The notes beneath the pieces are model-generated. The model was given only the letters and a program-made list of their open reading frames with translations. It did no database searches and was not told the DNA's origin. This document shows positions 2,485-55,052 of a DNA stretch of 64,000 nt, in pieces. Positions within the stretch are counted from its first letter, which is position 1. Every line of letters begins with the position of its first letter. This DNA comes from Mytilus galloprovincialis (taxonomy: Eukaryota; Mollusca; Bivalvia; Mytilida; Mytilidae). The stretch covers positions 55,064,122-55,128,121 of the forward strand of contig NC_134849.1 of assembly GCF_965363235.1 (NCBI RefSeq), read 5' to 3'. Position numbers and translations under genes: made by a program.

Positions 2485-2607
2485 ATCGACTTCTCGACTT
2501 TGGTTCTGCAAACAGAAGAGACAAATGCATCGCCGTAGATGGTTGTGTCACTGGGAAACTCAAACGTAGTTACGAGACGTGCACTACAGTTTACTATGTT
2601 ACATGTG
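2485..2607 (+). CDS. Gene 1 exon 5: second half of CTLD1
   Basis: Acceptor CTTTTAG before 2485 and donor GTAATA after 2607; phase 1 at both ends. Encodes 41 residues with three cysteines in the pattern expected at the end of a C-type lectin-like fold (RDKCIAV, YETC, YYVTCG). It is collinear with 30469-30591 and 47933-48055. Confidence 0.75.
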
Positions 2608-5600
2608 GTAATAAAGATTTCTACACTTTCGTTTCATTTACAAAATTTAAAATAGAACAACTCTTTTTTTCTTATTCTAAAATTTTTAAATAATAAGATT
2701 TGCATTGCATGCTTGTTGTCATACTGAAAAAAAAAATACCGACATATATCAAAGGGACCTTCGAACTCATGATCTTTCCTAAACATGGAAGTTTATCACG
2801 TTGATGACGCAACAGGTTTCCCACCTGTAAAGATGTGGGGTCTTTCTGCTTCAGTATGATACAGTATTTAATATTTTGAAAATGTCCCTTAAGGGGCTCG
2901 ACCTTTTAATAATGACCAGGGGACGAGTGAGTGATATCACAACTGTTTTTACTTCTCCACATCTGAAAGCCCAAAAATCTTGTCAGGAGCGTTTTGTTTA
3001 AATCCGTATACTTATTATGTCTTTAAAGAATTCATTGTTGATGACAAGCATTTGATTGTGAATTAAAAATGTGATTAAAAGTATTCTCTAATCGGGACCT
3101 TTATTGTTCATTTTTATCTGCTGACCTGTAGACGCGTTTATTATTATTTTTATTCCTTATTGTAATAGATCATATAAATATTACAGATAATGGTGCAGAA
3201 CTTGGATATATACATAATGACGACTACCATGCTGCAGCAGAGGATTGTGAAAGACGAGGCTCTTTTATAAAATGGTATTCTAACAGTTCGTGTGTAGCAA
3301 CTTCAATTCCACAATATTGGACAAGTGGGACAAGGTCTACAGAAATTTTTCTTCTTAGAAAACCTTGTAAGTGTATTTTCCATCACCATTTATAGGTTAT
3401 ATTAAGGTCCTTAATTAAAATATGTTTTCCTTATTGTGCATACATTTTAACTAATTGTCAGTAGTTCACTTTTTTTAATTAGGCAATAGGGAAACTGCGT
3501 GACTTAAGTTGTGAACAAAAAAGCAAATGAGGAACAACAGAGATATGGTATAGCGTGCCGGTGGTTCCAAAAAATAATCATACAAATTTAAATATTATTT
3601 TTCGTAGTTTAACTGGCAAACTGCATTTTACTTTTAGTGACTTTTTCAACAGACTGTTTATTTCTACGGGGAAAAATGCTTACTTTTCAATGAAATGTTC
3701 TTATTTGGAGGCCTTTGATAGCTGACTATGCGGTATGGACTTTGGTCATTGTTGAATGTTGTACGGTAACCTATAGCTGTTTATTCTGTGTCATTTGGTC
3801 TCATGTGAAAAGTGGTCGCATTAACAATCATACCACATCTTCTGTGTATGCCCCATTTAACATGCTCCATTGATGGGCATTATATTTTCTGGTTTGTTCG
3901 TCCGTCCGTCCGTTCGTTCGTCTGTCCGTCCGTTCGTTCTTCCGTTCGTCCGTTCGTTTGTTCGTTCGTCCGTTCGTTCGTTTGTCCGGCTGTCCCGCTT
4001 CAGGTTAAACTTTTGGTTGAGGTAGTTTTTGATGAAGTTGATGTCCAATTAACTTGAAACTTAGTACACATGTTCCCTATTATATGATCTTTTTAATGTT
4101 AATGCCAAATTAGAGATTTCCTCACATTTTCACGGTCCACTTAACAGAGAAAATGATAGTGCGGATGGGGCGGGGCATCCGTGTACTGGGGACACATTCT
4201 TGTTATATTTATATTAATACACGGCAATTACGATCTATCCATGGATTTTTCAAATATACACAGTTACAAAACATACAAGTGTAGTGGATCTTCATCTGTA
4301 CTACCAAGAATTCCTTTTTTTAGAGATGATCATGAAACTGATGGTTGCATTTCTGAAAATATAATAGTGAAATTTCACATAGGAACTGCCTTTGCGGCTT
4401 TAACTGTGCAACTTTTACTATGACGTTTCGTAAAAATAATTATATCCTACAATAGAAAGTTGAAATGCATTACTATTTTTTTCAGAAGTAAAACTATAGA
4501 GGTGTGCCCCATATTTTCAACATTTATATGCCCCGAGCTTGTACGAGTTTAAACTAATACTTATATTCAGTACAACCCTTGTCTTCACTTTTTGTCTTCC
4601 TCAGAATTCAGTAGTTGTCGTTACCGTGTGTTATTATACTTGTAACATCCACAAGGTATGTCACTTTGAGATGAAACATATAGGTGATATCTAGGAATCA
4701 GTACGTACAAAAAACAAAATATTATATGAATATTATGAAATGAGGCTTGGTTTGTGAAACAGCTATATTTACAGATTAGTAAAGCTATATTTGGTTTATA
4801 TATAACCTGTTTTTGTATAGATACAGTTATTAGAATACCAACGAACACAACTACATTTGAATGTATCGACCAACGCGTATTGTCAAATATTAGTATAAAA
4901 CAAATTCAACAAATCTGGATTTTTCGAAAATAAGGACTTTGTAAGAAAGTTTGGCGAAAAGAACGCTCATCCTTTCCACCAAACTGTTTGAATAACTAGA
5001 TATAGGGTGTAAGCTTTGCCTTTACAAAAAAAATAGGTTATAAATGATGGAATCTTTGCTAGAGATGTAAGCCTAATATAAGTTATTCCTATCATACATT
5101 TTTATTGAGACATATTAAATTGATTTTAGATGGAACCTTCAAAAGATGATTTATTTCGTTTTCCTTGTGAACTGTGATACAATGGGTTTTATAATAATGC
5201 AAACATCATTTTTAGGCTCCTGACTTAGGATAGGCGCAAAAAATGTGGCGGAGTTAAAAATGTTTTTTGAGATCTCAACCCTACTCCTATGCCCCTACCC
5301 AATGAAGAAAAAACAAACACATAACAATCTCAATCAACCTTATAGTATCATATGAATTCGCAGTCTGCTCAACAATTTATAATCTGAAACAACTTCATAA
5401 TGCATAATGCATGCAAAGACGAACAACAAATTATTCACAAATGAGCGTTGTTGTCCGTGTCAACATTGTCCGTACACCTGCTGAATATTTTTTGAAATTA
5501 TAATGCTAGTACTGCTATCAATTATTCCATTGAATGTGGGTTTTCTAACAGAAATAGGATAGAAAACACGAAGAACTTTTTCTTTTTCTCATTATTCATT

Positions 5601-8600
5601 AGCAGTTATTGTATCGACAATTTCTTGACAAAATTATTGTTGTAAGATAAACGTCAGAGGAATAAAATTATCGAATTTATTTCACATTTCAATTCACGGT
5701 ATGAATTTGAAACTTTTTAATCAGTGCAGCTTTTTAAATATACATGTCTTTTTTTCGACATGAATTGTCTTGTGCGGTAGTTAGTTTATTAAACATTGAT
5801 GTGTTTCAGACTTTACAGAAAACTTTCAACCTGAAGAATGCTATATTTTGAAAGAAAACGGAGGAGACGGAAAGAAAAATTGTAATGAAGATTTGCGATT
5901 TGTCTGTAGATTCGGTATGTAAACTATGGGAACATTAAAGATAACAAACATGCAAATTTGGATTGTTCAGTTTTAAAAAACATATAGTTTGTAAGTCTTA
6001 TAGAGAATAAATAGATCATTTCAATCCATAAGCCCGAAGAAAAAAAAACAGAATTAAGCTTAACAAAATCATTCATTTGAAGTGGTTCATAAGTGTTTCT
6101 TGTTTATTTTATTATTATTATTGATTTGACCTTTGGTTTTCGTGTTTGAATAGTTTTACACAAGTCATTGTGTTGAAGGCCTTATTGTGACCTATAATAT
6201 TTTACTATTAAACATTGTGACTTTAGTGAAGAGTTGTCTCATTGGCACCCGCAACATATCATCTCATTTATCTTTCCTGCTCCATTGGCTACATTCGTCG
6301 TGATGCTCATAGCAAAGGAAAATTGGTTATACATGGCATTCGTAGAAATCACAATTAAGAGGAAAAAGAATGGTATTCTGGCTATATATATTACCTGTTG
6401 GTAATCTTTAAAACTGATATCATGGATATTGCATAGGATTAAATAGATGGTGGTGTATTTCAAAATACTTTAGCTTTTTTTGTTTTGCATCATCTGTGTA
6501 CGCACTTATAGTTATTGTGTAGATATTTATATTAGTTTAGTCAGGATATTGGTTTTAGACAATCATGTTAGTGTACAGTAACCTTTTAAAGATCGATAGG
6601 TTGATCTTGATTGCATCTAAGTTTCTGCACAAGATAAATATATGTTGATACTTGTAAATTCATGAAGAAAAAAATAAATTATAAAAAAAAAAAAGTTTCT
6701 GCGCTCGATAAAAACATCTCAGCTTAAATTAGGATTGACTTTCTTGTTTGTAATAAGGTACAGTCAAACTTCCAAATACATGTTTGTATCTACAGAAGAC
6801 TTGATTAAAGATATTAAAATAATTTGGTAATGAAATGCTTGATTTATTTATTGATCAATAATACATAGATGACTTTCATGACCGGCACAAAATACGGACA
6901 TAGCGACCAAATTATGATATAAACACTTGGTTTAACTTAATTATTAAGGAGAAAATTAAAATAGCTTCAATAATCTCATCACACCTCCAGGATAAATATA
7001 TAATATTTTTACCTTTTCCATCAAATAAGAAGGCTTTAAATTGTTTGCAGAAATATTTGGAATCAGAATAACCAAACGACCATTTAAGGAAAAAGGGTAA
7101 CTTTAATTTGATAAAATGGTGTGTGGTGCAAAGTAAAGAGTCTAAAGATCAAAACTATCAACGGCATCAACAGGATCAGAAAAATGCAATAGTTCTAAAT
7201 CAATGTATAATATCTTAAAATGTTTTTCAGAGACCGACGAGGATGAAGGAAATATGATTTCGATTCCAAATCTTTCGACACCGCCGCAGAAAAGAGTTCA
7301 GTCTGACGATTCGGGAAGTAAGTTTGATTAGTTTTCCTACTTAAGACAAGTGAGGGCAATAATTTCATAAAATTGTTCAGTTATTCTTAAACTTACTCTG
7401 TTCCAAGTTTTGATTTCGCATTTCTAAGTTGAGATTTACAGCAGTATAATTATAAATTTATCAAGTTTTTTTTCAAGCTAAATATCTGATCAAAATAATT
7501 GTGTATAAAATTATTATACCGCATTTTTCAAAGTTTTATTTCAATTGATTTGGCAAAATTAAATGAATATGAAGAATTTGGTGCTCATTGTTGTTTTTTT
7601 ATGTTGAACTTACTAACATTTTGCTAATGGTTATGGTTATTCCTTTTTCATTAGTTTTATGTTGTATTAGAAAATATGTATTTAAAAATGGAATGAGGCA
7701 CTGCTGTTGCTGATACAGAATTAAAATAATTATGATAAATAACTGTGTTTTGATTACTTTTCTATATCTAATAGTCCAACATAGAAGATTTTTACAAAAT
7801 TCAATAATCCCACAATTTGAAAAAAGAGCAGTAAATTTTTATATCAGGTTTTGTATCAACATATTCTTTACAATATTTTTGTCTTTTATATTTTGCAGAC
7901 ATAGCAGCTGGAATTGTAACATCAATTATAGTTGTTATTGCCGTCATTTCAGTTCTCGTTTTCATTTATCTACGAAGGTACTATAATACTTTTGTCTGTG
8001 TAATTTGCTAGATGTATTTCACATAGTTGGATCAGTAATTATTATAATACTGATAACAGTTGTGATTATAGTTTTCATGTTTAGGAGGTAAGCATCATTG
8101 TGAATCGGCCCGATAAGGTGTCCACAGGGTTATTACCAACATGCGTATTAGTTTGACTCAGGTATGCAATGCTAATAATCTTCAGAAAAAAAAGGCTAAA
8201 CACTTACTAAACAGTTAGTATGCATACGACACCCATTCATCCAAACAAACGTGCATTATGCTAAACATATAAAGCATAACACGGCATCAATATCTGAAAA
8301 ATTTATTGTCTGCAGTTATACTTATAGTTTTAGTTATAAAATTAAATGTAACAATTGTACAAAACGCAGGTTGCAATGTTTGAGTGTACTTTTGTGTTCA
8401 TTTATACGAAGCTTTATGTTTAAGAACATGTGTATCGGTCACAGGACTATGTCATCCTGTTTGTTTTGAGCCACTATTTATATCTCAATAAAGATAACAC
8501 TTATTTAGTTTTGATCCTTTGTTTTTCTAAAGCATTCACTTTGTTGTTTGTTGCGTCCTATTGGTTGGAATATTTTTAAAGAACAATTATGTTGAGGTTT

Positions 8601-9207
8601 TGATGGTAAAAAGTCTTGCACACTCATTAAGAAAATTAAGATTTTTAATGAAGATGGGGTTATCTGTTTCAGTCTTTTAATTTGTTATTTTAGGATACAT
8701 TCAAGAGACCTTTTATCGTTGAGTACAATTGTTAAGGATGAGCCAAGCCCGAGCAGAATGGATAGTAATACAGCTAATGCGGCGTATGAACAGTTAAATA
8801 AGACAGATAAAGACAACATTTCACATTGTCAATCTTATGATCAATTGATTGTACATGAAGCAGACAAAACCAACAAACACAACACCAGAATTTCAAGTGA
8901 AGATGAAAGCAAATACGAATCAATAGACGAACCAATTAAAAAATATCATAATGCATTACCTGCGGAATACGAACAGTTAGAGCGGAGTGAAATAGTAAAA
9001 ACCACAAACGTGTATGATCCATTGCATTATACACCATTAGAAGATCCTGATCCGACTAACGCCCGATCCAACAACATTGTTTCAAGAGAAGTACACAGAA
9101 AATATGGAACAGGCCAAACCGGAAACGAAACGCATACAAACGTAGTTCCTTTAGAATATGAACAACTAGATATTAAAAAAAACAGACACAAGCACAAAAG
9201 CGTATGA
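2485..9207 (+). CDS. Gene 1: CTLD receptor with ITAM-like tail, 5' part missing
   Basis: Spliced gene seen from its fifth exon onward. Exons are 2485-2607, 3187-3366, 5810-5914, 7231-7317, one of two transmembrane exons (7899-7977 or 8027-8087), and 8694-9207. With the first transmembrane exon they join in one frame, giving about 362 residues: the second half of CTLD1 (41), CTLD2 (95), an acidic stalk (29), a membrane helix followed by Arg residues, and a tail with seven YxxL/I motifs. All introns are GT-AG. The exons for signal peptide, first CTLD half and WSC module must lie before the window, because the upstream intron is interrupted by a transposon ending at 2145. Intron sequence aligns with gene 3, but the tail does not. 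A type I lectin-like signalling receptor is the best reading; ligand unknown. The tail is cut short by a frameshift. Confidence 0.75.
2608..3186 (+). other. Gene 1 intron 5
   Basis: AT-rich intron alignable in parts with the gene 3 intron 48056-48537 (for example AAGGGGCTCGACC against AAGGTGCTCGACC). No separate feature seen. Confidence 0.5.
3187..3366 (+). CDS. Gene 1 exon 6: first half of CTLD2
   Basis: Acceptor TTACAG and donor GTAAGT; 180 bases, phase 1 to phase 1. Sixty residues contain the lectin-like helix AAAEDCERRGSFIKWYS and the core strand QYWTSGTRSTEIF. No EPN or QPD sugar-binding triplet is present, so calcium-dependent sugar binding is not predicted. NSS is a possible N-glycan site. 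Confidence 0.8.
3640..4450 (+). repeat. Dispersed repeat with (GTCC/GTTC)n stretch, gene 1 intron 6
   Basis: The first part (3690-3840, TTGGTCTCATGTGAA) belongs to a repeat also found near 20320 and 29180. From about 3860 a second element holds a GTCCGTTC-type microsatellite (3896-3990) and a GC-rich tail (GGGCATCCGTGTACTGGGGA). Both are gene-free insertions in the intron. The rest of the intron to 5809 aligns in patches with gene 3. Confidence 0.5.
5810..5914 (+). CDS. Gene 1 exon 7: second half of CTLD2
   Basis: Acceptor GTTTCAG and donor GTATGT; 105 bases, phase 1 both sides. Thirty-five residues end the second lectin-like domain with EEC, KNC and the terminal FVCRFG, matching the last three cysteine positions of CTLDs. 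The gene 2 equivalent carries a stop. Confidence 0.8.
5915..7230 (+). other. Gene 1 intron 7
   Basis: Contains a fragment of the dispersed repeat ending in GTTGTCTCATTGGCAC (about 6110-6245). Otherwise AT-rich without coding signal. Confidence 0.45.
7231..7317 (+). CDS. Gene 1 exon 8: acidic juxtamembrane stalk
   Basis: Acceptor TTTTTCAG and donor GTAAGT; 87 bases, phase 1 both sides. Encodes TDEDEGNMISIPNLSTPP and further polar residues. The ISIPxxS core is kept in genes 2 and 3, so this spacer is a conserved family exon. Confidence 0.75.
7899..7977 (+). CDS. Gene 1 exon 9a: transmembrane exon, first version
   Basis: Acceptor TTTTGCAG and donor GTACTA; 79 bases, in phase 1, out phase 2. 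Encodes IAAGIVTSIIVVIAVISV and continues hydrophobic to an Arg pair at the cytoplasmic face. Nearly identical to the gene 3 exon at 52414-52492. Confidence 0.8.
8027..8087 (+). CDS. Gene 1 exon 9b: alternative transmembrane exon
   Basis: Only 49 bases after exon 9a lies a 61-base open segment bounded by TTTCACATAG and donor GTAAGC. In the same phase (1 in, 2 out) it encodes GSVIIIILITVVIIVFMF followed by two Arg. It can replace exon 9a without changing frame, but joining 9a to 9b gives a TAG inside 9b. This implies mutually exclusive use. The acceptor has a weak pyrimidine tract, so use is unproven. Confidence 0.55.
8694..9207 (+). CDS. Gene 1 terminal exon: cytoplasmic tail with ITAM-like repeats
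   Basis: Acceptor TTATTTTAG before 8694; phase 2 entry after the transmembrane exon. The 171-residue tail is polar with Tyr motifs YEQL, YDQL, YESI, YEQL, YDPL, YTPL and YEQL. The motif YEQL recurs at 8785, 8968, 9157 and (after the stop, in another frame) 9347: intervals of 183, 189 and 190 bases. Each YEQL is followed after 11-13 residues by a YDxL. The reading frame ends at TGA 9205-9207 just after an A8 run (9175-9182); one extra A there explains the early stop. Likely docking sites for SH2 proteins once phosphorylated (inference). Confidence 0.75.
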
Positions 9208-9538
9208 CCAATTGCATGTTATACACCATGCAGGAAATGAATCAACTAACGACTGTCCACAACTCATTGTGTCAGGGGGAAAACATACAAATAATGAATC
9301 AAGCAAATATAAAAAAGAATATGATTCGAGGATAGTTTCTCCTGAATACGAACAATTAGATATCACAGAACAAGGTAAAAGAACGAAAACGTATGATTAG
9401 TTGCATTTTAAACATGTTGTAGTCAATGAGCATGATGACCAAACTGACGAACACTCCAACAATATATTACCAAAAGAAATGGATACACAATGTAAACCAA
9501 TGGGAGATACAAAATATATGGAAACTAACATAAACTAA
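9208..9538 (+). pseudogene. Decayed continuation of the gene 1 tail
   Basis: After the stop at 9205-9207 the tail repeat continues in a shifted frame: YDQL, then YEQL at 9347, then Y-D-stop (TAG 9398-9400) where earlier repeats read YDQL or YDPL. Beyond that TAG the same frame stays open to TAA 9536-9538. Two separate lesions therefore shorten a once longer tail, or the A8 run is an assembly error or polymorphism. Confidence 0.65.
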
Positions 9539-15840: not shown

Positions 15841-15841
15841 T

Positions 15842-38537: not shown

Positions 38538-38592
38538 ATGGATACATTACAATTTCTTGTTTCAGTTTTTCTTATTTTATTAAAATGTGAAG
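38538..38592 (+). CDS. Gene 3 exon 1: signal peptide
   Basis: ATG at 38538 opens MDTLQFLVSVFLILLKCE, then donor GTAAGA in phase 1. Chosen because the exon length, phase and upstream sequence match the gene 2 first exon. Confidence 0.8.
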
Positions 38593-41500: not shown

Positions 41501-44500
41501 AACTGGGTGAGGTGATGGGGGTTAACTTTCTGTTATTATTCAAATATTGTAATTATTGTTCATTTTGCAGGTGATTTTACAACAAATAGTTATTTTTTCA
41601 GTGCCTGCGCCAACGAGACCCAAGATTTGTTTTTATTCCAGTGTCATGATAACTGTTTTTGCTGTCTTAATCGCAAGAATTTTTTCTGAGTCACGTAGGC
41701 GCACGCTATTGAATTTTAAGAAATAATAGCCAAAAATCGTTATTTTTCCCTTCCTTTTTGCGTTTTTATGCCCTTTTACCCCCTTGAACTCACCCATTTT
41801 CTAAAATTAATGGTTTTGAAGTTCATACAAACAAACTTCAAACCTAAGGGAATATTTTAACGTGATAAGTAGCTTTTTTAAAGCAAAATTTAGAAAATAA
41901 GAAAATAGGGGGCCAAAAACTCCATTAGTTAAAAAATATAAAAATAAGTAGCTTACAACATGTACAAATTAAAGGTAAACAGATAAATAGAAAGAATAGA
42001 TTCATTATATTCTTATACGTTTTTTAAGAAAATTTTGTCTTGATTATTGTGATCTTCTCATTATCTTCACCTTCGACGTTTACATCTGAATAAGGTCCGT
42101 TCGAACGTGTTTAGTAACTGAATTTTAAAAGAGACAACTTTTGCTGTATATGAATAGTTATCAAAGGTACCAGGATTAAAATTTAATACGCTGATGCGCG
42201 TTTCGTCTGAATGAGACTCATAAGTGAGGCTAAGCCGATTCCTTTTGTACAAAAAATGTATGTTTTTCCCGTAAATTTCTCTGAACTAGCTGCATAGACG
42301 TATTTACGAATAAGAAAGCATGTTCCATTGCGGCATCAATCAAGTAAATAATAAAATGGAATTCGGTACGTACTCGTAGAATATATTCGCATATCCAAAT
42401 TTTAAACACTTTTGCACCAAGCTCCTTTAGGGTGCTGTAAAATTCTAAATAAGGAAGGAAATAATTATACTAGATGTAAGTTTTTATCTTATTCAAACTC
42501 ATTTCTACATTATTATTTACCAGATATTTTACCCGTTAATTTATTATTGATAGGCTAAGCGTCTTTGCTAAAATTTGACAAACATAATCAATATTGAAAA
42601 GGTCTAGTTGTCAGTGTTTACAGGGGACACACTGTTGTGTCACTAGGTTTCGCACTGGCAGTATATTCATATGTCTCTATTTTAATTTTTGAAAATTATA
42701 CTTTCTCAATTATATAAGTCTCGTTTCACATTTGACGCAGTGGTAGAATTTATATCGAACTCACTTGTTATTATTATGAAATCTAATTTTATATTTGACA
42801 TTCGACATGCAGCAGTTTGAACAGTACTACATTTCTTTATCAATCTTGTTTTTCTTTTATGTGATCTTTCTCTATTCGTTCACTATTCTTCTAATACAGA
42901 ATAACTCTGAATAAATTTTGAAGAAAGTCGGCGTGTGTTGCAAATTTCTATTTTTTATTTTTTTTCAACAGAATCGACCATGCAAAATGTAACTTTCTAC
43001 AATACACCAAAAACATGGAAATCTGCTGCTAATTTCTGTTCACATAATGGAAGAGTACTGGAAAGTAACGTAACTATATTAAAGAAACTAAACGAATTCA
43101 TAAATGCAGAAAAAGACGTGTGGATTGGAAAATTTAAAACATTAACTAAATGGACTTATATACAAGGTTTGTTTATATATCTAGTATTGCTAAATGGACA
43201 ACCAGATTCAATCAGGCAGCATCGTTAAGCAGCCAATCACACTAGAAGCTTTTTGTTATCAAGCAGCCCATTCCTATGATAGGTAAAAAAAACAAATACG
43301 ACATACGATACAAATATCTTTTTCAATATACATTTAATTCGACATTTTCAGGGCCTTTCATGATTCCCAATAATGACAATCCGCTGTTTCTGCCAATAAT
43401 GTCATCTATCTCTTTTTCATAGGCCACTGTTTATATAGTGTTTTTATAATACAAAAATCATCCCCTTGAAATCGTGTTATTTCTTTATCTCGAATTATGT
43501 TATTTCACAAGATTAGAATCCAAGAAGAGAAAATATTTGAAAACATGAGATTGAATAATCTAATTACAATTACATTGTTATAAATTGACTTAAGCAAGCT
43601 CGCCGCAATTTTGCGCCCGTCCATAATCGGTAGCCTCTGGCCTTTTTTAGTATTGTATGATTTCTAATTCTAGTTTCTTTAATGTTTGTGCTATTTTCAT
43701 ATTTCCTGACCGGTGTGAGAAAAAAATTTCTCCTCAGTAATGGAAAATCTGTTCTCGGCAAATGCTTAGTTGGCGTTTAATGGTGGCGTTAAATTTTCTT
43801 GTTTTCTTTTGAATTGTCTTGTTGTGAAGTCCTGAAAAAGGTGACAATGTCTGTTGACGTAACATTAATAGTACACAACTTTCCTCAAATCTGAATTGTC
43901 TTGTTGTGAAGTCCTGAAAAAGGTGACAATGTCTGTTTACGTAACATTAATAGTACACAACTTTCCTCAAATCTGAATTGTCTTGTTGTGAAGTCCTGAA
44001 AAAGGTGACATTGTCTGTTGACGTAACATTAATAGTACACAACTTTCCTCAAATCTGAATTGTCTTGTTGTGAAGTCCTGAAAAAGGTGACAATGTCTGT
44101 TTACGTAACATTAATAGTACACAACTTTCCTCAAATCTTTGAAAAGGAAGGATAAAAATCATTAAATAAACAGATTCCACCACTGTAACTCGTATATTAC
44201 GATAGTTCTCTACTATCAACAGTTAAGTTTAAATTATTTGAAAGCTCGGCAAGGCTCGCTCTTTAAATATTAAAATTTAACTGTCTCGAGTAAAGAAATT
44301 TCGTAGTACACTTGTTGCAGTTGCGGAACCTATATTTCTTTTATATATTTCGGAGTTAAGTATGACGTCCATTATTATTGAACTAGTATACATTTTTGTT
44401 TAGGGGCCAGCTGAAGCACGCCTCAGTATATGGGTTTTCCCCCCTGCATTGAAGACTCATTGATGACCTTCGGTTCTAGGTGCAAAGATAGTTACCAATG

Positions 44501-47500
44501 TAGTCCCTAACCATGTTGCAAACCGATGACAATGCAAATGTGTCTCTATCCGCCAGAAATATAACAGAAAATAATCTAGTTGTAGTTTGTATTCTACAAA
44601 TCCAAATTTAATCGCATTTTTTTACGTCGAAATACACAATAAATGCATTGAAATTGAACAAAAAATATAAAATAAGATCAGTTATATTTGATTGAATGTT
44701 AAGACCTGTAGTCTCAACTTGTACATATCTTTTTATCAGGTTTCAAAATACATAATTAACATTAGATAATTTTTTTATGAGATCTTTATATTGCGTTTTT
44801 TTGTCTTTCTTGCAGGGTGTTATTTATTAAATGGAAAGTTTCAACACTTTAAACTTGAACGTTCTCAAACTTTGGAGCTGCAATGTCAAATGTTATGCGA
44901 GGAGGACCAATTTTATAGTATTAAGGTAACGTATAACGTTGTCAATAATTTAGTATATGATTATATCCACGAATAACAATGAATCGGTAACATAAGGCAT
45001 TTTAAGGTGTTGTACATTAAACGGTTTCATTTGCTACGATAGGCAGGACATTTTTGAAAGACTCAAAAGAAGAATAAAGTGCTCAAACTTTATCAATTTT
45101 TCAAAGAGAAATTTGATTGTGACTATGTGCCATATTCATTTGATTCATTTTTATGTTTTCAATAGCACCAAACCCCTCATCTCAAATCGGTCACCCGGAA
45201 AAATGAAAATATGACCCACTTAATTATTTGTTTGCAATCAAATTGCGTTTGTTTGAAACTAATGCTATAGTGTTGTTCTTAAAACGATATTTTACTTGCA
45301 AATGTTTCCCAAAACACTATTTTAGACGCAAATTAACAAGCTTGTGTAGTTGTAATCAAGACTATTGGATGCTAAATATTTCATTTCTGCACATTATCTT
45401 CGATAACAAATATACAGTGAAAGCATGACTATAATAGGTGTCCCCATATGGCCATAAGGACATAAGACCACACACATGTCATGATATAACTTAAAACGTT
45501 TTGATTGGCCAAAAGCATAGGGAATAAAAAAAATTATGTACTTGTACTTTGAACTGCGGGACTAATCACGAGAGGATCTCACAAGATAAGGAGTGACTAC
45601 AACGTCTATGTCATTTTCGGTGTAGATATTGTTAAGTTAATTTCAATGAACATCTCAACTTCTAGCAACTGCTAAACGATATTATAATTATATTTAATAC
45701 GAAAAAACTAACCAATTAAATATCTAGAGTAATATGAAATAAGTAATTCAGCCTTATATCGATTTAAAATCATTATTCTGTCTATACTTAACCTAATGCC
45801 GAAAAGCCAAACTTCACGCAAAAACAATGAACTCGTCGTCCTCTTTGAAGTTCTATTCCTTTTCTCTCGTTATTTTAGTTTCGAAGGACCTGTCTACAAA
45901 ATAGCCTTTGCTCTCTGATGGAGTTTTCTCATTTGCAATCGTACAACATCTTTAAATGTTTGTATTGTAATGTGTAATGCGTCTTTTGAAATTGAATTTT
46001 CCATATAATTCAATAGTCTGGATAACAATGTGTTATTTAAAAACAAATTATGTTAGTTATCATATATATTTGATTTTTGTCTCGATGTAAACCAAAAAGC
46101 ATTGTTGCTAGCCAGTTTTCAACTATGAATAAATGGTTGATAGGCACTGCTAGCACTTTTCCACGATACATAAATAAATATGACATTTGAGTAATGTCTT
46201 TGTAATAGTGGTTATTTTACTGAATCAAATCATGTATTACTAATCTAATTACTTCTTTTATCAAATAAAAGTTGTTCCTAAGCCCTGTTAACATGACCTT
46301 GACTTCTTACTGTTTATATGTTGCGAACTGAACATTCTATGATCTATTCTTAAAAAAACCTATTACTAAACACAAGTTCAAATGACCTTTAACATTGGGT
46401 CAAATTTATGGTAATTTAATAGCCAATATTTTGCACACAATAAGTATTCAATAGTTTTTACTTTTTGTGAATTATCCTAAAAACATTGTCAAATTTCAGA
46501 GGCAAGAAGACAAATACTAGCTGCCATCCTAGAACCAAATTTCCTAAACATTTTATACAAATAGTTGACTAGAAACATTGATTCTTTTTTTAACATCACA
46601 GTTTCCCTAGTGACAATATTCACAAAAAATATTTTTTATATGATTATGACATCGATGTTGTGTTTGTTGAGTATCATGTTTCTGAAAATATCATTTAATA
46701 AAATCGGGTTTTGATTCCGTATGTCTGCAAAGTTTTTTCGATGATAAATTCCTCAAAATGTACGGGAAAATTACTGTGTTGCAATGATAGTTGTGGCCTA
46801 GCAAAACTTTGGTCAGCACATCTTACTTTCCTACATGTACCTATTTTTCTGAGTGTCGAAAACCCTATATATTGTATATGAAATGGTTGGTTATTTACAG
46901 ATAGTTCCTCATTTGTTTTCAGGTTAGCTGGTTATTTTGACATAATGTTGGGTGGTATTTTCTCCTTTCTTATATATTAATCAATAACAGTTTAAGATTT
47001 ATAAATAAATGGTTGATATGCACTCTTCCACTTTAAATGAAATGATTGTTTAAATATTATGTTTCTTTGACATAATGTTTGGTGGTATTTTCTCCTTTCT
47101 TATATATTAACCGTTCAAGTTATGTCTTTAAAAGGAAGAAGATTGTTATTGTATAGCGAATATAAGTTCCTTCGTTAGAAAAACGAACTGCAATTGTGAC
47201 GGCTGTTACAAAGTTTGGAAACGTGAGTACATTTACACGACACTGATTAATTCTACGAACTTTAGTTCGGTAATTCACAACAGAGGTCAATGTAAACATA
47301 TTTCTTCTCACATTGGTTTCATGATAAAACAAACAAATTGTAGAAGATACTATTTTATGAAGAGACGGCAATCTTGAATGAAAGTTTGTTTTCATTGTTC
47401 CACACGAAAGATACACATGAAGTTCTTATCTTGTTATGGTTTTTTTTTCTCAGATTTTTAAACGGTTTTAATGTGTTAAACTGAAAAATCTATCCATTTT

Positions 47501-50500
47501 TTTACAATATATGTTTCTGTTCGAAGGAGTTTTGGTGAACACTTAATATAATAATAATATTTCACTTTCACTAGGGTGATTCTAAAAATTGAAAGGTAAA
47601 TCAGACATAGAGATGGTTGTCAATTTGTATTTGTTCCGTCTAACAGAAGTTCCAAAGGAAACTTTATTATAAACAATGTCATAATATCTATTCCTGTTGG
47701 AACAAATATTCTATACCATTTATTCCATTAGGAACATATACTGTAATATTTATTCCTGTGGAAATTATATTCCAGAATATTTTTTTCCTTTTGGAACATA
47801 TATTATGAAGGAACTTCTATTGCGAGAATTGTAAAGAATAAATCAGAAATAGAAAACACAAGAACTATCAACTGATAATACTTAAAAAATAAGTTGGATA
47901 GGAATAATTTCTCTTGATATTTTTTCTTCCAGATCAACTTTCCAACTTTAGTTCTACGGACGAAAGAGCAAATTGTATCGCTGCAGAAGAATGTGCCTTC
48001 GGAAAACTCAAACGAAGTTATCAGAATTGCGCTAAAACTTATTATGTTACCTGTGGTAATAAAGATTTCTAAACTTTAGTTTCATTAAAAAAATAAACGT
48101 CACTTTTTCTAATTCTAAATTTTTTAGATAATAGAACATTACATTTCATACTTGTTGTCATAATGAAAAAGTGTTCTCACCTTTAAAGATGTGGGTCTTT
48201 CTGCTTCTGTGTGATACAGTTTCTATTTTATTGAACTGTCCCTTAAGGTGCTCGACCTATAAAACAGGGGACGGATGCGCGATATCACAACTATTTGCAC
48301 TCCACCACATTTGAAAGCCAACCATTCTGTATTGAGTGTGTATTTTATGTCTGTGTAGTTTTCTGACTTTAAACAATTCGTTGTTGAAACAGTAAGCAAA
48401 CGTTTGATTTTCAAATAAAAATGTGATTAAAAGTATTCTCTAATCGGGGCCTTTATTGTCGGAAATTACAAAATGTATATGATGACCTGTAGACACTTTT
48501 TTGTATCTGTATTCTGCTGTATCATATAATGTTACAGATAATGGTGCAAACCTTAACTATACATATGGTGAAAACTACCATGCTGCAGCACAGGATTGTG
48601 AAGAACGAGGCTCGTTTATAAAATGGTATTCTGACAGTGTATGTGAGACAACTGATTTTCCAATATATTGGACAAGTGGGACAAGATATACAGAAACTTT
48701 TCGTCTTAGAAAACCATGTAAGAAATTTCCATCACCATTCATAGGTTATATTAAGGTTCTCAATTAAAATATGTTTTCCTTATTTTTGTATACATTTTAA
48801 CTAGTTGTCAGTAGTTCACTTTTTTAATAAAGGCAATGGGGAAACTGCGTGACTTAAGTTGTTAACAAAAAAGCCAAATAAGGAATATCAGAGAGATATA
48901 ATATGGTATAGCGTACCAGTGGTTCAACAAATAATAATTATACAATTTTAAATCGCATTTTTCGTGGTTTAATTGGCAGTCTGCATTTTACTTTTATTGA
49001 CTGTGCGCCATATTTTCAACATGTATATGCCCGAGCTTACAAGTACGAGTTTAAACTAATACTTACATTCTATACTACTGCTTTTTGTCTTCCCAGGAAT
49101 TCAGTATTTGTCGCTATCATGTGTTATCAACGGTCTAATATAAGTTTGACTTGAATACATTTGTATTGAGACATAATCAATTGACTTTAGACGGAACCTT
49201 CAAACGATGATTTATTTCGTTCTCCTTGTGAACCATGATACAATGGGCTTTATAATAATGCATACTTCATTTTTCGGGTCTCTTGTAAAAAAAACATTGG
49301 AAAACGTCAAAATGAAAAAAAACTGAATTCTACGCTACTGCAATTCTACAATTTTGGTCTTAAACTAATTTGACCTATTGCAGACTATATCAGCTAAACA
49401 CATGTAGACGACTGTCTTTACCCTTAATGGTGTACACATACGTGTACACGTTTCGCGTGGCCATTGTAGCCATCATAATCCTGAAAAGATGATAGTATAA
49501 AATGTGATATACCAAATGTACAATTCTTACAAATTTCACTGTGACCGATGTTAGGAAAAGAATAATCAACCTTATAGTATCATATGAATTCGCACTCGGT
49601 AGTCAGCTCAATAATTTATAATTTGAAACAACTTTATAGAAAAATTCGAATAATAATGCATATAAAAACGAACAACAAATTATTCACAAATGAGCATTGT
49701 TGTCGGTGTCAACATTGTCCGTGAACGTGCTGAATATTTTTTGATGTTAGAATACTAGTACTGATATCAATTATTTTCGTCATTCCAAAAAATGTGTGTT
49801 TTCTAAAGAAAATAGAGAAGAAAACACTAGAAACTTTTTTTCTCTCTTCATGTATTCCTTATTCATTTGAAGCAATTTTATCGACACTATCTTGACAAAG
49901 ATCATTGTTGTAAGACGTCAGAGACATTATCGAATTCATTTCACATGTCAAATCACGGTATGAATTTAAAACTTATTAATCAGTGCAGCTTTTTAAATAT
50001 ACATGTTTTTTCGACATGAATTGTAGAAAACAGTGCATACATTGTGCATTTTATATTCATCCAATTAAACTACGATTTCAAAATATCTTATTAAACATTG
50101 TTATATTTCAGACTTTACAGAAAACCTTCAACCTGAAGAATGTTATATTTTGAAAAAAGACGGAAGAGAAGACTATAAAAACTGTAATACCGATAAAAAG
50201 CGATTTTTTTGTAGATTAGGTAGGTAAAATTTGAAGAAAAAAATTATAAAGATACATGTAACAAACATACCAACATTGATAGTTATTTTTTTAAAACATA
50301 CAAGAAAAATAGATATAAAGAGAAAAACTAATGAAAGAGAGAAATGAAATAGATAAAACAACACATAGAAAAAACTAACAACCTATCAATTCTTATTCAT
50401 AATATAGAAAACTACAGATTTAGCAACATATATTAAACAGAATCAGACATTCCTTACTCCTTTAATGACATTCTTCTTATTGTACATACCAAATTATAAT

Positions 50501-53500
50501 CGGCAATAAATCGCTTAACTCGTCAGATTGTCAAAAAGCAGAAATTTAAGTTTTGACAAACGAAAACACAGACCGGATGTTATTGGTTATTTATGCATCC
50601 CCACAAGTCACACGAATTTCTTCAAAACGAAATTTGAAATCCATCAATGATTATTTAAGGATTTTTTTGTATTGTGAAACAATTCTTCTAATCCATCCCA
50701 CACTTGAATCATTAAAAAATGTTGCACCTCTATAATGCCGAGACTCAGCTATGGTAATCTGAATCAGGCCATAAGAATATTGCAGGCAGTAATACGTCAA
50801 CCTGCTGTTTTTAGACAATTTTACGTCAGAAACTCGTTTTACTCTCCTTACAACACCGGTATACAGGCAGACGGGATGTGTTGATGGCCAATCATGTCCA
50901 GATCAGTATTTAGTAACAACGTAATGTCAAGAAAATGTAATTATGCAACGCCAATACTACACAGGTTTACGGCCATAACGTCATCAGCTAATCAAGTCGA
51001 CAAACTACAGATTCACGTTGATTTTTTTTCCATTATACTGAAATGCCTAAGAAATCTTTGAGCTAATGATGAACTAATAATACATAGATGCATGGTCATA
51101 GCAAACGAATCGTGAAATAATCATTGTAAGATAGTTCCTAAGGCAAACCCCAAAAAAGTGAAAAACATTTGTAATTATTATATGAAAAAAGAACATAGCA
51201 AGATAACGGTGAATGTTTATTAAATGCAATTTAGACGGGTCTCTATAACTGAATTCGATCATAAAGTCTGATTCATAGCAGTACAAGGACTAGTCTGTTG
51301 TTGAAAAGGCGTTATTTTCCAAAGGAATGCATATAATCTGTCGACAAAGTTTCAAAAATTGTTTAAACGAGAAAATTACCAGCTTCAATCATCCTACTAC
51401 TCATATATACCTCCAGTAGGTATATCTAACATATTTACCTTTCTCATTAGAGGAGAATGCATTAAAGGAGTTGCCGCAATATATTTACATTGTTCTCATT
51501 GTAATTAAAAAATGTAATGATACATCATTTGATACATATACAAAATGTAGTAATTAACGAAGAAATCAAACATGTACGGACATTTATGTTGAAGAACACT
51601 TACAAAAGGCCGAGATGAATTGATAGTTTATGATTTTTTTGTCGATCCTAAATTATTATTATTTTGATTTTGCTACAATCATTATTTATTATATTTTAAT
51701 TATTGTATTATTGAAATACAATAGTATTGAATCAATGCATATCTTAAAATGTATAACAGGGACAGATGAGGATAAAGGGGATATAATTTCGATTCCAGAC
51801 CTTTCGATGACGCCACAGAAAAATGTCCGATCTGATAATTCAGGAAGTAAGTTTGATAATTTATTACTACTAGTAAGGACAATATTTTTATACAAAAAAT
51901 CAGTTGATTTTTCTCTGTTACAAGTCGTCTTATCGCATTTGTAACTTGGGATTTATAACATAAAGAGACAATTTGTGATAGTAATAAAGCATAAATAGAT
52001 AAACCTTTATCAATAAGTCTTTTTTCAAACTGAAAATCTAATAATGATCAATAAAAATGTGTAAATTAAGTCGTAAGCAACCGCTTGTTCCAAAGTCTCT
52101 ATTTCAGTTGAAAAATGTAACTAAAATGCTCGTTCTTTGTTTGTTCTGTTGGACTGACTAATGCTTTTGGTTATTCCTTTTATGTATTTTGTATTTAGTT
52201 TTAACAATATATATGTCAAAACGGAATAAGGCTTGCTGATACAGAAACTCAAATTGATCCTTAGAAACAGATGCGTTGTTATTTCTTGTCTACATCTTAT
52301 AACCCAACATAAGTGTTTATGAAATTCCATCTTTTAAAATGGAACAGAACATTTTTATATCAAGTTTAGTATTAACATACTTTTTACAATTATGTATATA
52401 ATATATTTTGCAGGTATAGCAGCTGGAATTGTAACATCAATTATAGTTGTTATTGCCGTGATTTCAGTTCTCGTTTTGATTCATCGAAGAAGGTACTATC
52501 ATATTTTTGTCCGTGTAATTTCACATCTAGAGACGACCAGAATCCTCTTATATTCATAATGGATCATAATAAAGACTGAATACTTTATCAAACAAAAGAC
52601 AATGTTAGGCATGCATCAATGAGATAGCAACACTAAAACGTAACCGACATGAAAAGGTCATTTATCGGACCACAGATAAATTATCACGTTGTGATTGGTT
52701 AAACGCCGTCACGTGGTGACCCCCGATGAGACTGTAGGGGGTTAGTAAGTTTCATAGGGGGTTCATGACGCATTACTGGTGACGTCATCTATTGCTGTTG
52801 TTGTGGTTATTGTTAATTTTTCAACAAAACGCAGCCGAAAAAGTCCAGCGTCCGATAAATTCGTTATACGGTTAACTACTGACCCCCTACGGATCCATAG
52901 AGGGTGAATAAAATGTATAGGGGATTCGGCCTCCGGCCTCACCCCCTATGGATTTTACTAACCCTCTATCGATCCGTATGGGGTCAGTAGCGAACCATAT
53001 AACTTATAGTGTAGAGACACAATACAATTATTGTGAATAAATACACAGATTTTTTGTTTGCATGTAATTGAATTTTATATCGATCCATTAAAAGAACGTT
53101 TTCATAAAAGTATTGAAAAATAATCAGAGTATGTAAACTTCTGATATTATTAGTTACATGGTGTGTTAGTGACCTAATACGATGTTTATGGGGTCAGTAA
53201 ATTCTATATGGGGTGAGAGAAAAGCTCGAATCCCAATATGGAATTTAATGACCCCATATATCGTTTTAGGTTACTAGCACACTGTCTAACGAATTTATCT
53301 TACCGACTATCTTCACATGTGGTATTTTGACTAGTATTAAGATCCTACTGCCATTTGTCTATACAGAAAACAAATTCCAACAGTTACAACTTTTAAGATT
53401 TAAATTTGTTTCATGAATTTATTTCAATCGTTCATTACATGTATCAATTTCTTCGTCTGTCGAATCCTTCAGATTTCTTTTTTTTTTTTTTCAAATGGAA

Positions 53501-55052
53501 GTAACTCCGTTATGCCAACAATAACATCCTGTTAGCTTCAATTATGTTTTATGGACTTATTTCAACCTTTCATCATCAATTTCTTCGTCTGTTGAATCCT
53601 TTCAGATTTTTCCTCAACACCGTGTTGTGTTTATAAAGGGTTGTGGCATCTTTTTTGTTTTGAATGGGAAGTAACTCCTTACTAACCCCATATGGTTGCT
53701 AACCCTATATCCTATATGGTAAATAACCAAATATTTTTTAGAGCGTTTAGAGCACCCTATACGTAATATACATAGTCACCACGTGTAGTCCGTTAACTAA
53801 TCATATCCCCATAAATCTATAACAGGCAAGATAAAGCACATTCCAAAACTTTATTTATAAAATCATGAATTGTAATATAAAAACTCAAGTGTGAATCAGG
53901 TTACGTTCCTTGTCGGCAGTAGAACTACTTCGCGGCAATTCAGCTCAATAAATAGGCGGATTTGGGAAATAATTTGGTTGCTTATATAGGGAATCACTAA
54001 AGCGTGACTGGAGCGGGCCCCCTCTAAGGTCAGTAAGTGGGCCCCCACTTATGACAATTTCTGGATCAGCCACTGCAATAAACAGTCTACCATTAGTAGT
54101 TTTCAGTCCTAAATGATTTAAAGATAAAAGTTGGTTTAAAAAATTTAGAATGTATTTTGCCTACAACTAGTATTGTAATCAAATTCGATTCTAAAACCAT
54201 TTGTTCGGAAAATTCTAAAGAATATACAAGGATTTGCAGTGAAGAAAATGCAAATACACGACAATGCTCTTCAACTTTTTACTTGTTTGGCTTTATAAAT
54301 ATTTTGATATGAGCGTCACTGATGAGTCTTATGTAGACGAAACGCGCGTTTAGCGTAATAAATTATAATCTTGGTACCTTTGATAACTATTGGAAATGTT
54401 TTACGTATTTTTCTATTACTTTATTTATATATATTTAGCTGATTAGTCAATACTTTATTTTAGGCTGTCTAGAAAGAAACCAACCTCCCACGAGTCACAA
54501 AACAATACTCGTCTGCAAGATACAGTTGGGTTGCCTAGTAACCACGAAATATCGAAGGCTCCAATATACCATGAAATCGACAATGAAAACTTTGGTCCAC
54601 GAAGTGGAAAGTTGAATTGTTCTCGTGCAGTTAATAACATTACATATGACCAGACTCCGAATTCAAAAAATGTGAATCAAAGCGCAAACAGTTCTATTTT
54701 AACAAATTTGAACTCCATTGAGCATCAAAGAAAATTTGGTCAAACCGAATATGATATGCCAAAAGTAATAAATGTAACCGGGAATTCTTATGAAGGTGCA
54801 AATGCAAACAACTATTGTCTAGCAGAACCAATTACAAATAACACAGAAGAAGAATTAGATCCGTATGACATTAATAAAGATTATGATCATCTGAATAACG
54901 TTCAGAAGAAAGAAAACCCATTTACAAAAGTTTACGACCACCTGCCAACAACAGTTACTGATGACCCTACTTACGATCACTCTAATCTTAAGAGTGCTTT
55001 AGACAATGAGGACTTTTATGATCATTTCAAAAATGAGGGAGACAATGATTGA
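38538..55052 (+). CDS. Gene 3: intact CTLD-WSC transmembrane receptor
   Basis: Ten exons: 38538-38592, 42972-43166, 44816-44925, 47135-47222, 47933-48055, 48538-48717, 50112-50219, 51760-51846, 52414-52492, 54464-55052. All join in one frame with GT-AG introns to give 537 residues. Layout: signal peptide (1-18), CTLD1 first half (19-83), WSC-like module with eight cysteines (84-149), CTLD1 second half (150-190), CTLD2 (191-286), acidic stalk (287-315), membrane helix (316-341) and a 196-residue tail with YHEI, YDHL, YDHL and further Tyr. No sugar-binding EPN or QPD triplet is visible, so the ligand may be protein or a non-classical glycan. The tail pair YDHL-x13-YDHL is slightly wider than a classic ITAM. 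Best reading: type I signalling lectin-like receptor, possibly immune (inference). Introns hold several fold-back elements. Confidence 0.8.
38593..42971 (+). other. Gene 3 intron 1
   Basis: 4.4 kb. Holds a minus-strand dispersed repeat (40095-40460), the fold-back element 41382-41920 and a GACGAAAC repeat fragment at 42152-42235. The 111-codon frame at 40727-41062 has no recognisable protein character. Confidence 0.45.
41382..41920. mobile_element. MITE with ~140-base inverted arms, gene 3 intron 1
   Basis: The left arm begins GTTTTTGGCCCCCCTATTTT and the right arm ends AAAATAGGGGGCCAAAAAC. The arms stay complementary through TTGAAGTTTGTTTG (41460) and CAAACAAACTTCAA (41830). No ORF. Target duplication not clear. 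Confidence 0.65.
42972..43166 (+). CDS. Gene 3 exon 2: first half of CTLD1
   Basis: Acceptor TTTTTCAACAG, donor GTTTGT; 195 bases, phase 1 both sides. Contains TWKSAANFCSHNGRVLES, VWIGKFKTL and a terminal KWTYIQG. Same length as in gene 2. Confidence 0.8.
43811..44138 (+). repeat. 82-base minisatellite, four copies
   Basis: Copies start at 43811, 43893, 43975 and 44057 with GAATTGTCTTGTTGTGAAGT. Copies 1 and 3 read TGTTGACG, copies 2 and 4 TGTTTACG, so a 164-base dimer was itself duplicated. Lies in gene 3 intron 2. Confidence 0.85.
44816..44925 (+). CDS. Gene 3 exon 3: WSC-like module, first part
   Basis: Acceptor TTCTTGCAG, donor GTAACG; phase 1 in, phase 0 out. Encodes GCYLLNGKFQHF, LQCQMLC and FYSIK. 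Confidence 0.8.
44926..47134 (+). other. Gene 3 intron 3
   Basis: AT-rich. A segment TTTGACATAATGTTGGGTGG (about 50 bases) is repeated at 46936 and 47067, 131 bases apart, just before exon 4. Nothing else seen. Confidence 0.4.
47135..47222 (+). CDS. Gene 3 exon 4: WSC-like module, second part
   Basis: Acceptor is the modest TTTAAAAG; donor GTGAGT. Encodes EEDCYCIANISSF and NCNCDGC. With exon 3 this gives eight cysteines in 66 residues, the WSC count; the CYC pair is typical of that domain. Confidence 0.75.
47643..47822. mobile_element. Small inverted-repeat element, gene 3 intron 4
   Basis: AGAAGTTCC on the left and GGAACTTCT on the right enclose three or four AT-rich units with TATTCCTGTTGGAACA. 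Gene 1 shows no equivalent in the same intron. Probably a miniature transposon. Confidence 0.4.
47933..48055 (+). CDS. Gene 3 exon 5: second half of CTLD1
   Basis: Acceptor TTCTTCCAG, donor GTAATA; 123 bases, phase 1 both sides. Encodes ANCIAAEEC, SYQNC and YYVTCG. Confidence 0.8.
48538..48717 (+). CDS. Gene 3 exon 6: first half of CTLD2
   Basis: Acceptor ATGTTACAG, donor GTAAGA; 180 bases, phase 1 both sides. Encodes HAAAQDCEERGSFIKWYSD and IYWTSGTRYTETF; very close to gene 1. Confidence 0.8.
48718..50111 (+). other. Gene 3 intron 6
   Basis: Long stretches align with gene 1 intron 6 (for example 49560-49760 against 5330-5520). The GTCC-type element at 3860-4450 of gene 1 is absent here, so it inserted after the duplication or was lost from this copy. 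Confidence 0.5.
50112..50219 (+). CDS. Gene 3 exon 7: second half of CTLD2
   Basis: Acceptor ATATTTCAG, donor GTAGGT; 108 bases, phase 1 both sides. Encodes YFTENLQPEECYIL and closes with RFFCRLG. It has no stop at the site broken in gene 2. Confidence 0.8.
51760..51846 (+). CDS. Gene 3 exon 8: acidic stalk
   Basis: Acceptor TATAACAG, donor GTAAGT; 87 bases, phase 1 both sides. Encodes GTDEDKGDIISIPDLS, rich in Asp before the membrane. Confidence 0.75.
52414..52492 (+). CDS. Gene 3 exon 9: transmembrane exon
   Basis: Acceptor TATTTTGCAG, donor GTACTA; 79 bases, phase 1 in, phase 2 out. Encodes IAAGIVTSIIVVIAVISV followed by more hydrophobic residues and HRRR. Confidence 0.8.
52681..53806. 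mobile_element. Fold-back element, gene 3 intron 9
   Basis: The left end TGATTGGTTAAACGCCGTCA with CACGTGGTGAC is mirrored by GTCACCACGTG and GTTAACTAATCA at the right. Inside are many GGGGTCAGTA, CCCCTATGG and CCATATGG words in both orientations. No ORF. Confidence 0.5.
54263..54391 (+). repeat. GACGAAACGCGCG dispersed repeat before gene 3 tail
   Basis: Contains GATGAGTCTTATGTAGACGA and CGCGCGTTTAGCG; opposite orientation to 17578-18156. It ends about 70 bases before the tail exon. A fragment of the same repeat also lies about 110 bases before the gene 2 tail exon. Confidence 0.65.
54464..55052 (+). CDS. Gene 3 terminal exon: tyrosine-rich tail
   Basis: Acceptor CTTTATTTTAG; enters in phase 2 and ends at TGA 55050-55052. 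The 196-residue tail begins LSRKKPTSHE and contains IYHEI, TYDQT, EYDMP, SYEGA, DPYDI, DYDHL, VYDHL, TYDHS and FYDHF. Where gene 2 has YEIL-x10-YDCL this tail has SGKL-x10-YDQT, so the first Tyr of that pair is lost. The distal pair YDHL-x13-YDHL is kept. AATAAA at 55103-55108 lies about 50 bases after the stop. Confidence 0.8.

Follow-up and report, generated by a model that had tools for sequence, protein, structure and literature searches.

Dectin-1, CLEC-2 and the receptors of the natural killer (NK) complex are type II proteins that carry one C-type lectin-like domain (CTLD) and signal through a hemITAM or an adaptor, and a full immunoreceptor tyrosine-based activation motif (ITAM) consists of two YxxL/I motifs spaced 6-12 residues apart. 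Bivalves possess large C-type lectin repertoires. The available text of a 2023 survey of bivalve C-type lectins lists WSC among the domains combined with CTLDs in these animals (PMC10140915). In the invertebrate and vertebrate receptors Draper and MEGF10, according to the consulted sections of two papers, the receptor's own tail carries an ITAM that feeds Src and Syk/Shark kinases (PMC4503800, PMC8092387). In the accessible part of a further study, Bcl10 is reported in molluscs, invertebrate Syk/Zap70 homologues are found only where CARD-CC and Bcl10 also occur, and ITAM-bearing receptors are inferred upstream of an invertebrate Syk-CARD-Bcl10-MALT1 pathway; that part names no such receptor and makes no outright statement of Syk in molluscs (PMC5978004). 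Here we describe a tandem gene family of the mussel Mytilus galloprovincialis, part of which lies in a stretch of 64,000 nucleotides (the window; contig NC_134849.1, C12:55064122-55128121) and whose products would probably be type I receptors in which a WSC-like module is carried on a CTLD scaffold and a tyrosine-rich tail recruits SH2 kinases.

The whole genome was searched (1,384,861,812 bases in 331 contigs) and 273 kb were read closely, namely C12 54.81-55.01 Mb (200 kb), the window itself and 9.1 kb on its left side. A first-pass annotation had proposed that the window holds at least three paralogous spliced genes and a lone tail exon, all on one strand, and this picture was confirmed and enlarged: iterated exon hidden Markov models (HMMs) recovered in the 273 kb eight paralogues that share one exon order (gA, gB, gC, gD, gE, g1, g3 and g4) and two tail-only relics (one at C12 54923431, and g2). 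As read from the sequence, the encoded protein would start with a signal peptide and a first CTLD (CTLD1), which is split by a phase-1 intron holding a WSC-like module of two exons (phases 1-0-1), and would continue with a second CTLD (CTLD2), a short acidic stalk, one transmembrane helix and a long tail with YxxL pairs of two classes. The annotation had set CTLD, WSC and CTLD in a row; the content stands, but the order does not, because the module lies inside the long-loop region of CTLD1, and CTLD2 comes after it.

The interrupted first CTLD and its WSC-like module

The layout can be followed in gene 4 (g4; window positions 38538-55052, + strand), whose ten exons are separated by introns that are all GT-AG with consistent phases and form one open frame to the stop. 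These ten exons are labelled E1, E2 and E4-E11, since no conserved E3, that is, no separate second half of CTLD1, was found between E2 and E4. E1 (38538-38592) encodes the signal peptide MDTLQFLVSVFLILLKCE and ends in a phase-1 donor; it is conserved with DNA upstream of gene 3 and was the only candidate in a scan for an ATG, a hydrophobic core and a phase-1 donor. The N-terminal half of CTLD1 is assigned through paralogues to E2 (42972-43166), and its C-terminal half, through paralogues and intron position, to E6 (47933-48055). Between them lie the two halves of the WSC-like module, E4 (44816-44925; eight-gene alignment and paralogues) and E5 (47135-47222; the same alignment and the exon phases). 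CTLD2 follows in E7 (48538-48717; N-terminal half, by alignment and Pfam matches in paralogues) and E8 (50112-50219; C-terminal half, by alignment), the stalk in E9 (51760-51846) and the transmembrane helix in E10 (52414-52492), both by tblastn between paralogues, and a class I tyrosine tail to the stop in E11 (54464-55052; tail alignment).

Several observations point to E2 and E6 as the halves of one CTLD. The four core cysteines and the W-[IL]-G core motif of CTLD1 are invariant in all eight genes (gA being scored without its first residues), and the first core cysteine lies in E2 and the other three in E6. When E2 and E6 were joined without the module, the full Pfam Lectin_C model was matched above its cut-off of 22.6 bits in three of eight genes (gB 23.6, gD 24.4, g1 25.0); gC fell just below (21.7), g3 matched the full model at 16.7 and gE its first part only at 18.3, which leaves g4 and gA without any match. 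With the module left in, none of the seven genes compared (all except gA) passed, gC and gD scoring 14.8 and 16.5 and gB, gE, g1, g3 and g4 giving no match. The joined profile of all eight genes found 47 matches in the PDB, 42 of them named CTLD-bearing by count and the other five being two optineurin entries, one shell protein, one unnamed entry and one labelled TNFalpha. Twelve alignments reached column 90 or beyond, well into E6, which starts at column 68; E values were 8.7e-5 for PLA2R, 1.4e-4 for struthiocalcin (columns 12-108) and 1.3e-3 for CD69 (columns 8-108). A joined profile of three sequences gave CTLDs in six of seven PDB matches, and a two-sequence profile that included the module gave none. 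The PDB result of the eight-gene joined profile appears to be stronger support for a single CTLD than the gain in Pfam score from E6.

These data also bear on an arrangement of three domains in series, in which E2 would be a truncated CTLD followed by a unit made of the WSC-like module and E6, and then by CTLD2. Such an arrangement gains from the single-exon profiles, as E2 alone finds CTLDs (13 of 16 PDB matches) and E6 alone finds none among its four matches. However, the E2 consensus covers positions 2-56 of the 107 of Lectin_C only and contains a single core cysteine out of four, and the joined profile spans both halves in CD69 and struthiocalcin. Moreover, in a CTLD gene on C13 the mid-CTLD intron (its acceptor chosen by eye) has phase 1 and falls at W-R-W-I-D-G (motif W-x-W-x-D-G), the same place as the module intron, and a pattern scan of it found nothing WSC-like; thus the two module exons sit in what is an ordinary intron elsewhere. 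We consider the serial arrangement improbable, and read E2 and E6 as one CTLD interrupted by the module. The C13 gene itself (C13:19860001-19868500, minus strand) shows a CTLD and then, by eye, an Ig-like exon, and lies among Lectin_C matches clustered at C13:19.8 Mb.

The module retains eight cysteines in all eight genes in the order of the WSC domain (GCY, C-x3-C, C-x-C and three more; order by eye), and its exon structure has counterparts in the same genome. A genome search with PF01822 gave at least 129 matches (370 candidates, 150 scored), many of the listed ones being halves of the domain (about 1-47 and about 40-82). Seven two-exon WSC loci, at least four of them close paralogues, were inspected at base level (L034 and L041-L046). 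All seven have an inner phase-0 acceptor 12 nt before the first cysteine of C-x-C, five the matching phase-0 donor, six an outer phase-1 acceptor (L043 having phase 0 only) and six an outer phase-1 donor. The module shares the phases 1-0-1, with its inner acceptor 9 nt before C-x-C. We conclude that, judged by cysteine order and exon structure, the module is probably derived from a WSC domain, although its scores do not place it among WSC members. Two-exon WSC domains were seen in tandem, about 2-3 kb apart, at C3:78.2-78.4 Mb, C5:70.9 Mb and C9:90.96 Mb, and single-exon ones form an array of their own at C5:82.1 Mb.

A number of results weigh against these assignments. Gene 4 alone matches neither Lectin_C nor WSC in Pfam at E up to 10, while its paralogues do, and the HMM check proposed in the annotation gave a mixed verdict. 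Six shuffled versions of E6 joined to the consensus E2 scored 17.6-24.1 bits against Lectin_C, one of them above the cut-off, compared with 25.1 for the real E6, and 30 of the 42 CTLD alignments of the joined profile end before column 90, many within E2. Against Pfam WSC (cut-off 27.8), gA reached 0.0016 (19.1 bits) and gB 0.016 (15.8 bits); the other six of the eight modules gave no match, and none reached the cut-off. An hhalign comparison of two modules with the WSC domains of Wsc1 and KREMEN1 gave a probability of 0.10, no better than shuffles (the real module alignment was equalled or exceeded by 136 and 138 of 150 shuffles). Among the listed PF01822 matches, 13 of 129 are whole domains in one frame, including the four best, and locus L040 has no two-exon acceptor and donor pair of the kind described above. 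For CTLD2, Lectin_C gave a weak match in two of six members (best 0.013), none above the cut-off.

Several low-scoring candidates were set aside. The top PDB match of the two-gene module profile, S100A3, was treated as a composition artefact, and so were the two repeat-rich bacterial toxins at the top for the eight-gene module profile, whose E values of 1.3e-4 and 0.32 are summed and in which no single stretch passes. Low Pfam matches to TM_ErbB1, TMEM154, EphA2_TM, CBM_3, zf-HC5HC2H_2, DUF4306, DUF7703, Pol_alpha_B_N, SBF2, EKAL and DUF3336 were judged spurious.

CTLD2, aligned from six of the eight genes with g3 and gD left out as broken, has the four core cysteines, and its best PDB match was tetranectin (0.69) in two collinear pieces, the other two matches being non-CTLD. 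Its mid-domain intron is also of phase 1, with no family exon inside. By eye, neither EPN/QPD nor WND motifs occur in the alignments of CTLD1 (eight genes) or CTLD2 (six genes), and the broken gene 3 has a QPD without a WND. As the calcium- and sugar-binding motifs are kept in neither domain, classical calcium-dependent C-type sugar binding by either CTLD is unlikely. CTLD1 and CTLD2, in the same alignments, each have one extra invariant cysteine beyond the four, and these two might pair with each other.

Two classes of tyrosine-rich tail

The annotation had described the tails as ITAM-like with paired YxxL motifs. Conserved pairs were indeed found, with a spacing of 13 in class I and of 13, 11 and 11 in class II, but the strict ITAM spacing of 6-12 does not hold for class I, including gene 4. 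Five class I tails were aligned (gA, gB, gD, g4 and the relic g2), the gene 3 tail being excluded because it is truncated. Seven of nine tyrosine columns were invariant, against 24 of the remaining 172 (Fisher P 6.5e-5, without correction for relatedness). The unit YDHL-x13-YDHL is identical in gA, gB, gD and g4 and appears as YYHL-x13-YDQL in g2. In class II, the gC and gE tails each carry seven YxxL/I motifs with spacings of 13, 23, 14, 11, 43 and 11, a number that none of 20000 shuffles of the gC tail reached, and the g1 tail carries seven with spacings of 13, 22, 14, 11, 1 and 39. YxxL/I pairs spaced 6-12 number two at 11 in gC (P 0.0013), two at 11 in gE, one in g1 (P 0.036) and one, at 8, in g2. 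By eye, no NPxY was seen in the tails read, a conserved DPTY being the nearest.

The gC tail stops after three pairs, and a fourth, YEQL-x11-YDQL, lies beyond the stops. Further YEQL-x11-YDxL units were noticed past the gC stop (C12 54909643-54909900) and past a frameshift in the gene 1 tail (window 9176-9400); since such units are still readable there, the class II tail would once have been longer.

The tails could alternatively be multi-site docking platforms for SH2 proteins and adaptors, or carry endocytic or inhibitory single-YxxL signals, in which case the proteins would be scavenger or uptake receptors rather than ITAM-type activators. This explanation draws on class I, where gA, gB, gD and g4 lack a YxxL/I pair at a spacing of 6-12, the number of YxxL/I motifs is marginal against shuffles (P 0.008-0.13), and TYDH, Y-x-HF and several other conserved tyrosines are not YxxL. 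It accounts less well for the unchanged YDHL-x13-YDHL unit of those same four genes, with its variant in g2, or for the seven motifs of gC and gE, and ITAM signalling has an invertebrate precedent in Draper, as the sections consulted describe (PMC4503800). We regard docking or uptake as a real but somewhat doubtful possibility, and continue to favour recruitment of SH2 kinases as the probable function of the tails.

Extent, decay and selection of the array

A genome search with the ectodomain (65 candidates scored; counts are lower bounds) gave at least 47 matches at E<=0.001, and all 47 lie on the + strand of C12 at 54.41-55.21 Mb. All ten class II and all eleven class I tail matches listed (33 candidates in each search), some of which are pieces of one tail, are likewise on the C12 + strand, and the array spans 54.40-56.02 Mb if the weakest tail matches (35-37% identity) are counted in. 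More distant members with E2-like and tail-like sequences (33-48% identity) were noted at C12 54.40-54.44, 54.70-54.75, 55.15-55.21 and 56.02 Mb, and a class II tail of 76% identity at C12 55167894. Within the window, a translated self-comparison placed the paralogous exons on the + strand, and the gene regions are also duplicated at the DNA level. The best paralogue match of each exon ranged from 2e-6 (the short membrane exon) to 1e-42 (the tail) in tblastn over the window, which, with the recurrence of the exon set in eight genes, excludes chance. Per-exon HMMs over the window found no extra copies beyond one weak tail match (14591-14794, E 0.0018), which is antisense within a reverse-transcriptase open reading frame and was taken as spurious; it was dropped as profile drift together with two other reverse-transcriptase-like matches that arose after iteration of the tail HMM (55078778, E 1.7e-11; 54989767, minus strand, 3.2e-6).

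Exon ends were taken from the DNA, and splice sites were accepted at offsets of up to 12 nt in steps of three. AG and GT flank E2, E4 and E7 in all eight genes; E5 has AG in eight and GT in seven (AT in g3), and E6 has both in eight (the gE donor reset by eye). For E8, GT is present in eight and an in-frame acceptor in seven (that of gA reset by eye), the acceptor of gD being off by one base. Seven genes yielded E9; E10 was found in five by HMM and in gC and gE through a hydrophobicity scan, and neither exon was found in gA. The ten exons of gC and those of gE each form an open frame from the ATG through to the stop (521 codons in gC, 528 in gE), and the nine exons joined in gB are open from E2 to the stop. 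First exons resembling E1 of gene 4 precede gC, gD and gE. Scans of 4 kb for gB and of 2.6 kb upstream of E2 for g1 revealed no first exon, and none of that type was found for gA. The transmembrane exon of gC occurs twice with the same peptide, 708 bases apart (C12 54907680-54907755 and 54908388-54908463), possibly as alternative exons or as a recent duplication.

Gene 3 (window 24451-34549, +) has the same ten exons as gene 4 and had been taken by the annotation as the reference product; this choice does not hold, as gene 3 is a pseudogene broken in three places. Its signal peptide MDKLTVLFSVFLTLWKCE (E1, 24451-24505), CTLD1 N half (E2, 26526-26720) and first module half (E4, 28226-28335) are followed by a second module half (E5, 29720-29807) whose donor is AT instead of the GT of the other seven genes. 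After the CTLD1 C half (E6, 30469-30591) and the CTLD2 N half (E7, 31133-31309), the CTLD2 C half (E8, 31608-31712) contains an in-frame TGA. The stalk (E9, 32500-32583) and transmembrane helix (E10, 33181-33256) precede a tail that stops early (E11, 34046-34549; stop at 34347-34349) and continues into an out-of-frame internal duplicate.

The window contains six exons of gene 1 (2485-9207, +), whose E2, E4 and E5 lie to the left of it. These six are the CTLD1 C half (E6, 2485-2607), the CTLD2 N and C halves (E7, 3187-3366; E8, 5810-5914), the stalk (E9, 7231-7317), the transmembrane helix (E10, 7899-7977) and a class II tail (E11, 8694-9207), which, compared with gC and gE, changes frame within a stretch of A near 9176, a site through which the gC and gE tails read. 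Gene 2 (18818-19460, +) consists of a single class I tail exon that stands alone and is interrupted by a TAA.

Pooled ratios of non-synonymous to synonymous substitution (dN/dS) were computed by the Nei-Gojobori method from every pair among the 6-8 genes used for each exon, with 60 bootstrap draws, leaving out E8 of gD (frameshift), E9 and E10 of gA and E10 of gE and keeping the broken g3. The values were 0.45 for E2, 0.29 for E4, 0.20 for E5, 0.63 for E6, 0.43 for E7, 0.34 for E8, 0.42 for E9 and 0.46 for E10, with the 5-95% bootstrap interval below 1 in every exon. The ratio was lowest in the module exons E4 and E5, the E4 interval overlapping those of other exons, and the class I tails of g4 and g2, the one pair computed, gave 0.57. 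Single pairs above 1 (g4 and g1 at E7, 1.22; g4 and g3 at E6, 1.06, and E8, 1.05) count on the other side. In an unrooted ectodomain tree, (gE,(gC,(g1,g4))) was recovered with support of 0.83, 0.985 and 0.86, so that g4, with its class I tail, groups with class II genes, which suggests that tails were exchanged between paralogues.

With eight genes, no fewer than two of them broken, and two relics in the sequence read, the earlier proposal of a family growing by tandem duplication and loss was upheld. The lesions in g3 and gD, the relics g2 and 54923431, the frameshifted tail of g1 and the E9 and E10 not found in gA would also suit a cluster in decay, in which few genes or none still work. That explanation is very unlikely, in our judgement, given that all ten exons were found and are open in g4, gC and gE (nine in gB) and that pooled dN/dS is well below 1, and we retain the reading of a tandem family with working receptor genes.

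Two repeat features were also noted in the window. A retroelement sits between gene 1 and the relic g2, its reverse-transcriptase frame of 568 aa (14087-15793, minus strand) matching RVT_1 at 4.3e-6 and 27.0 bits, under the cut-off of 29.6, with partial DNA copies near 13798-16578 and 25033-25472 (87-91% identity). A 1.5-kb duplication of 85% identity, with 25-bp minisatellites, lies at both ends of the window (603-2150 and 62438-63988).

Proposed function and comparison with known receptors

We propose that the CTLD1 core would hold the module at the usual ligand-binding place of the long loop, and that the module may be the main contact surface, because of this position and because it is the most constrained part of the receptor. 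Clustering of the receptors would lead Src-family kinases to phosphorylate the YxxL pairs of the tail, and the phosphorylated pairs would recruit a tandem-SH2 kinase of the Syk or Shark type together with other SH2 proteins, the expected outcome being a signal that activates the immune or mucosal cell; the paralogues would diversify through duplication, tail exchange and decay. More tentatively, exon shuffling could have placed an entire WSC-type domain within the ligand loop of a CTLD, turning the CTLD into a scaffold for a foreign binding head combined with interchangeable multi-ITAM-like tails, and the array, of up to about 1.6 Mb, could perhaps be a main source of ITAM-type input to the Syk-CARD-Bcl10-MALT1 pathway. 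The mussel cluster would represent a concrete, testable candidate set for the ITAM receptors inferred upstream of that pathway.

The annotation had known of no described family with this layout. Combinations of CTLD and WSC are already in print for bivalves in the available text of the 2023 survey, whereas the nested order and the multi-tyrosine tail go unmentioned there, and the words 'ITAM' and 'tyrosine' appear nowhere in that text (PMC10140915). The available text of a 2025 review likewise contains no 'ITAM', 'WSC' or 'tyrosine' and mentions Syk once, as presumed (PMC12842671). The nested layout is undescribed in the literature searched, a search outside of which lie figures, supplements and most subscription journals. 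The proteins of the survey resemble the mussel family in being bivalve, in combining CTLD with WSC and in belonging to an expanded and uncharacterised repertoire; the portion available gives their domain content only, without nested order or tyrosine tail, and the two sets may overlap.

The engulfment receptors Draper, MEGF10 and CED-1, in the parts of the sources consulted, differ by an ectodomain of EMI and EGF-like domains and by NPxY, neither of which was seen in the mussel receptors; for EMI and EGF-like domains, gene 4 gave no Pfam match at E up to 10. The WSC domains of yeast Wsc1 and of KREMEN1 have, by eye, their eight cysteines, C-x3-C and C-x-C among them, in the same order as the module, but the mussel module has a shorter C-terminal part and no CGG, scores below the Pfam cut-off and is nested in a CTLD. 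The nested domain would also be a clear example, visible in the exons themselves, in which a symmetric pair of phase-1 exons has placed one extracellular domain within the binding loop of a second. Finally, Dectin-1, CLEC-2 and the NK-complex receptors are likewise clustered CTLD receptors with YxxL-type signalling, and CD69 is among the nearest solved CTLDs. By contrast with these, the mussel genes would encode type I receptors that combine two CTLDs and a nested module with a long tail bearing many tyrosines.

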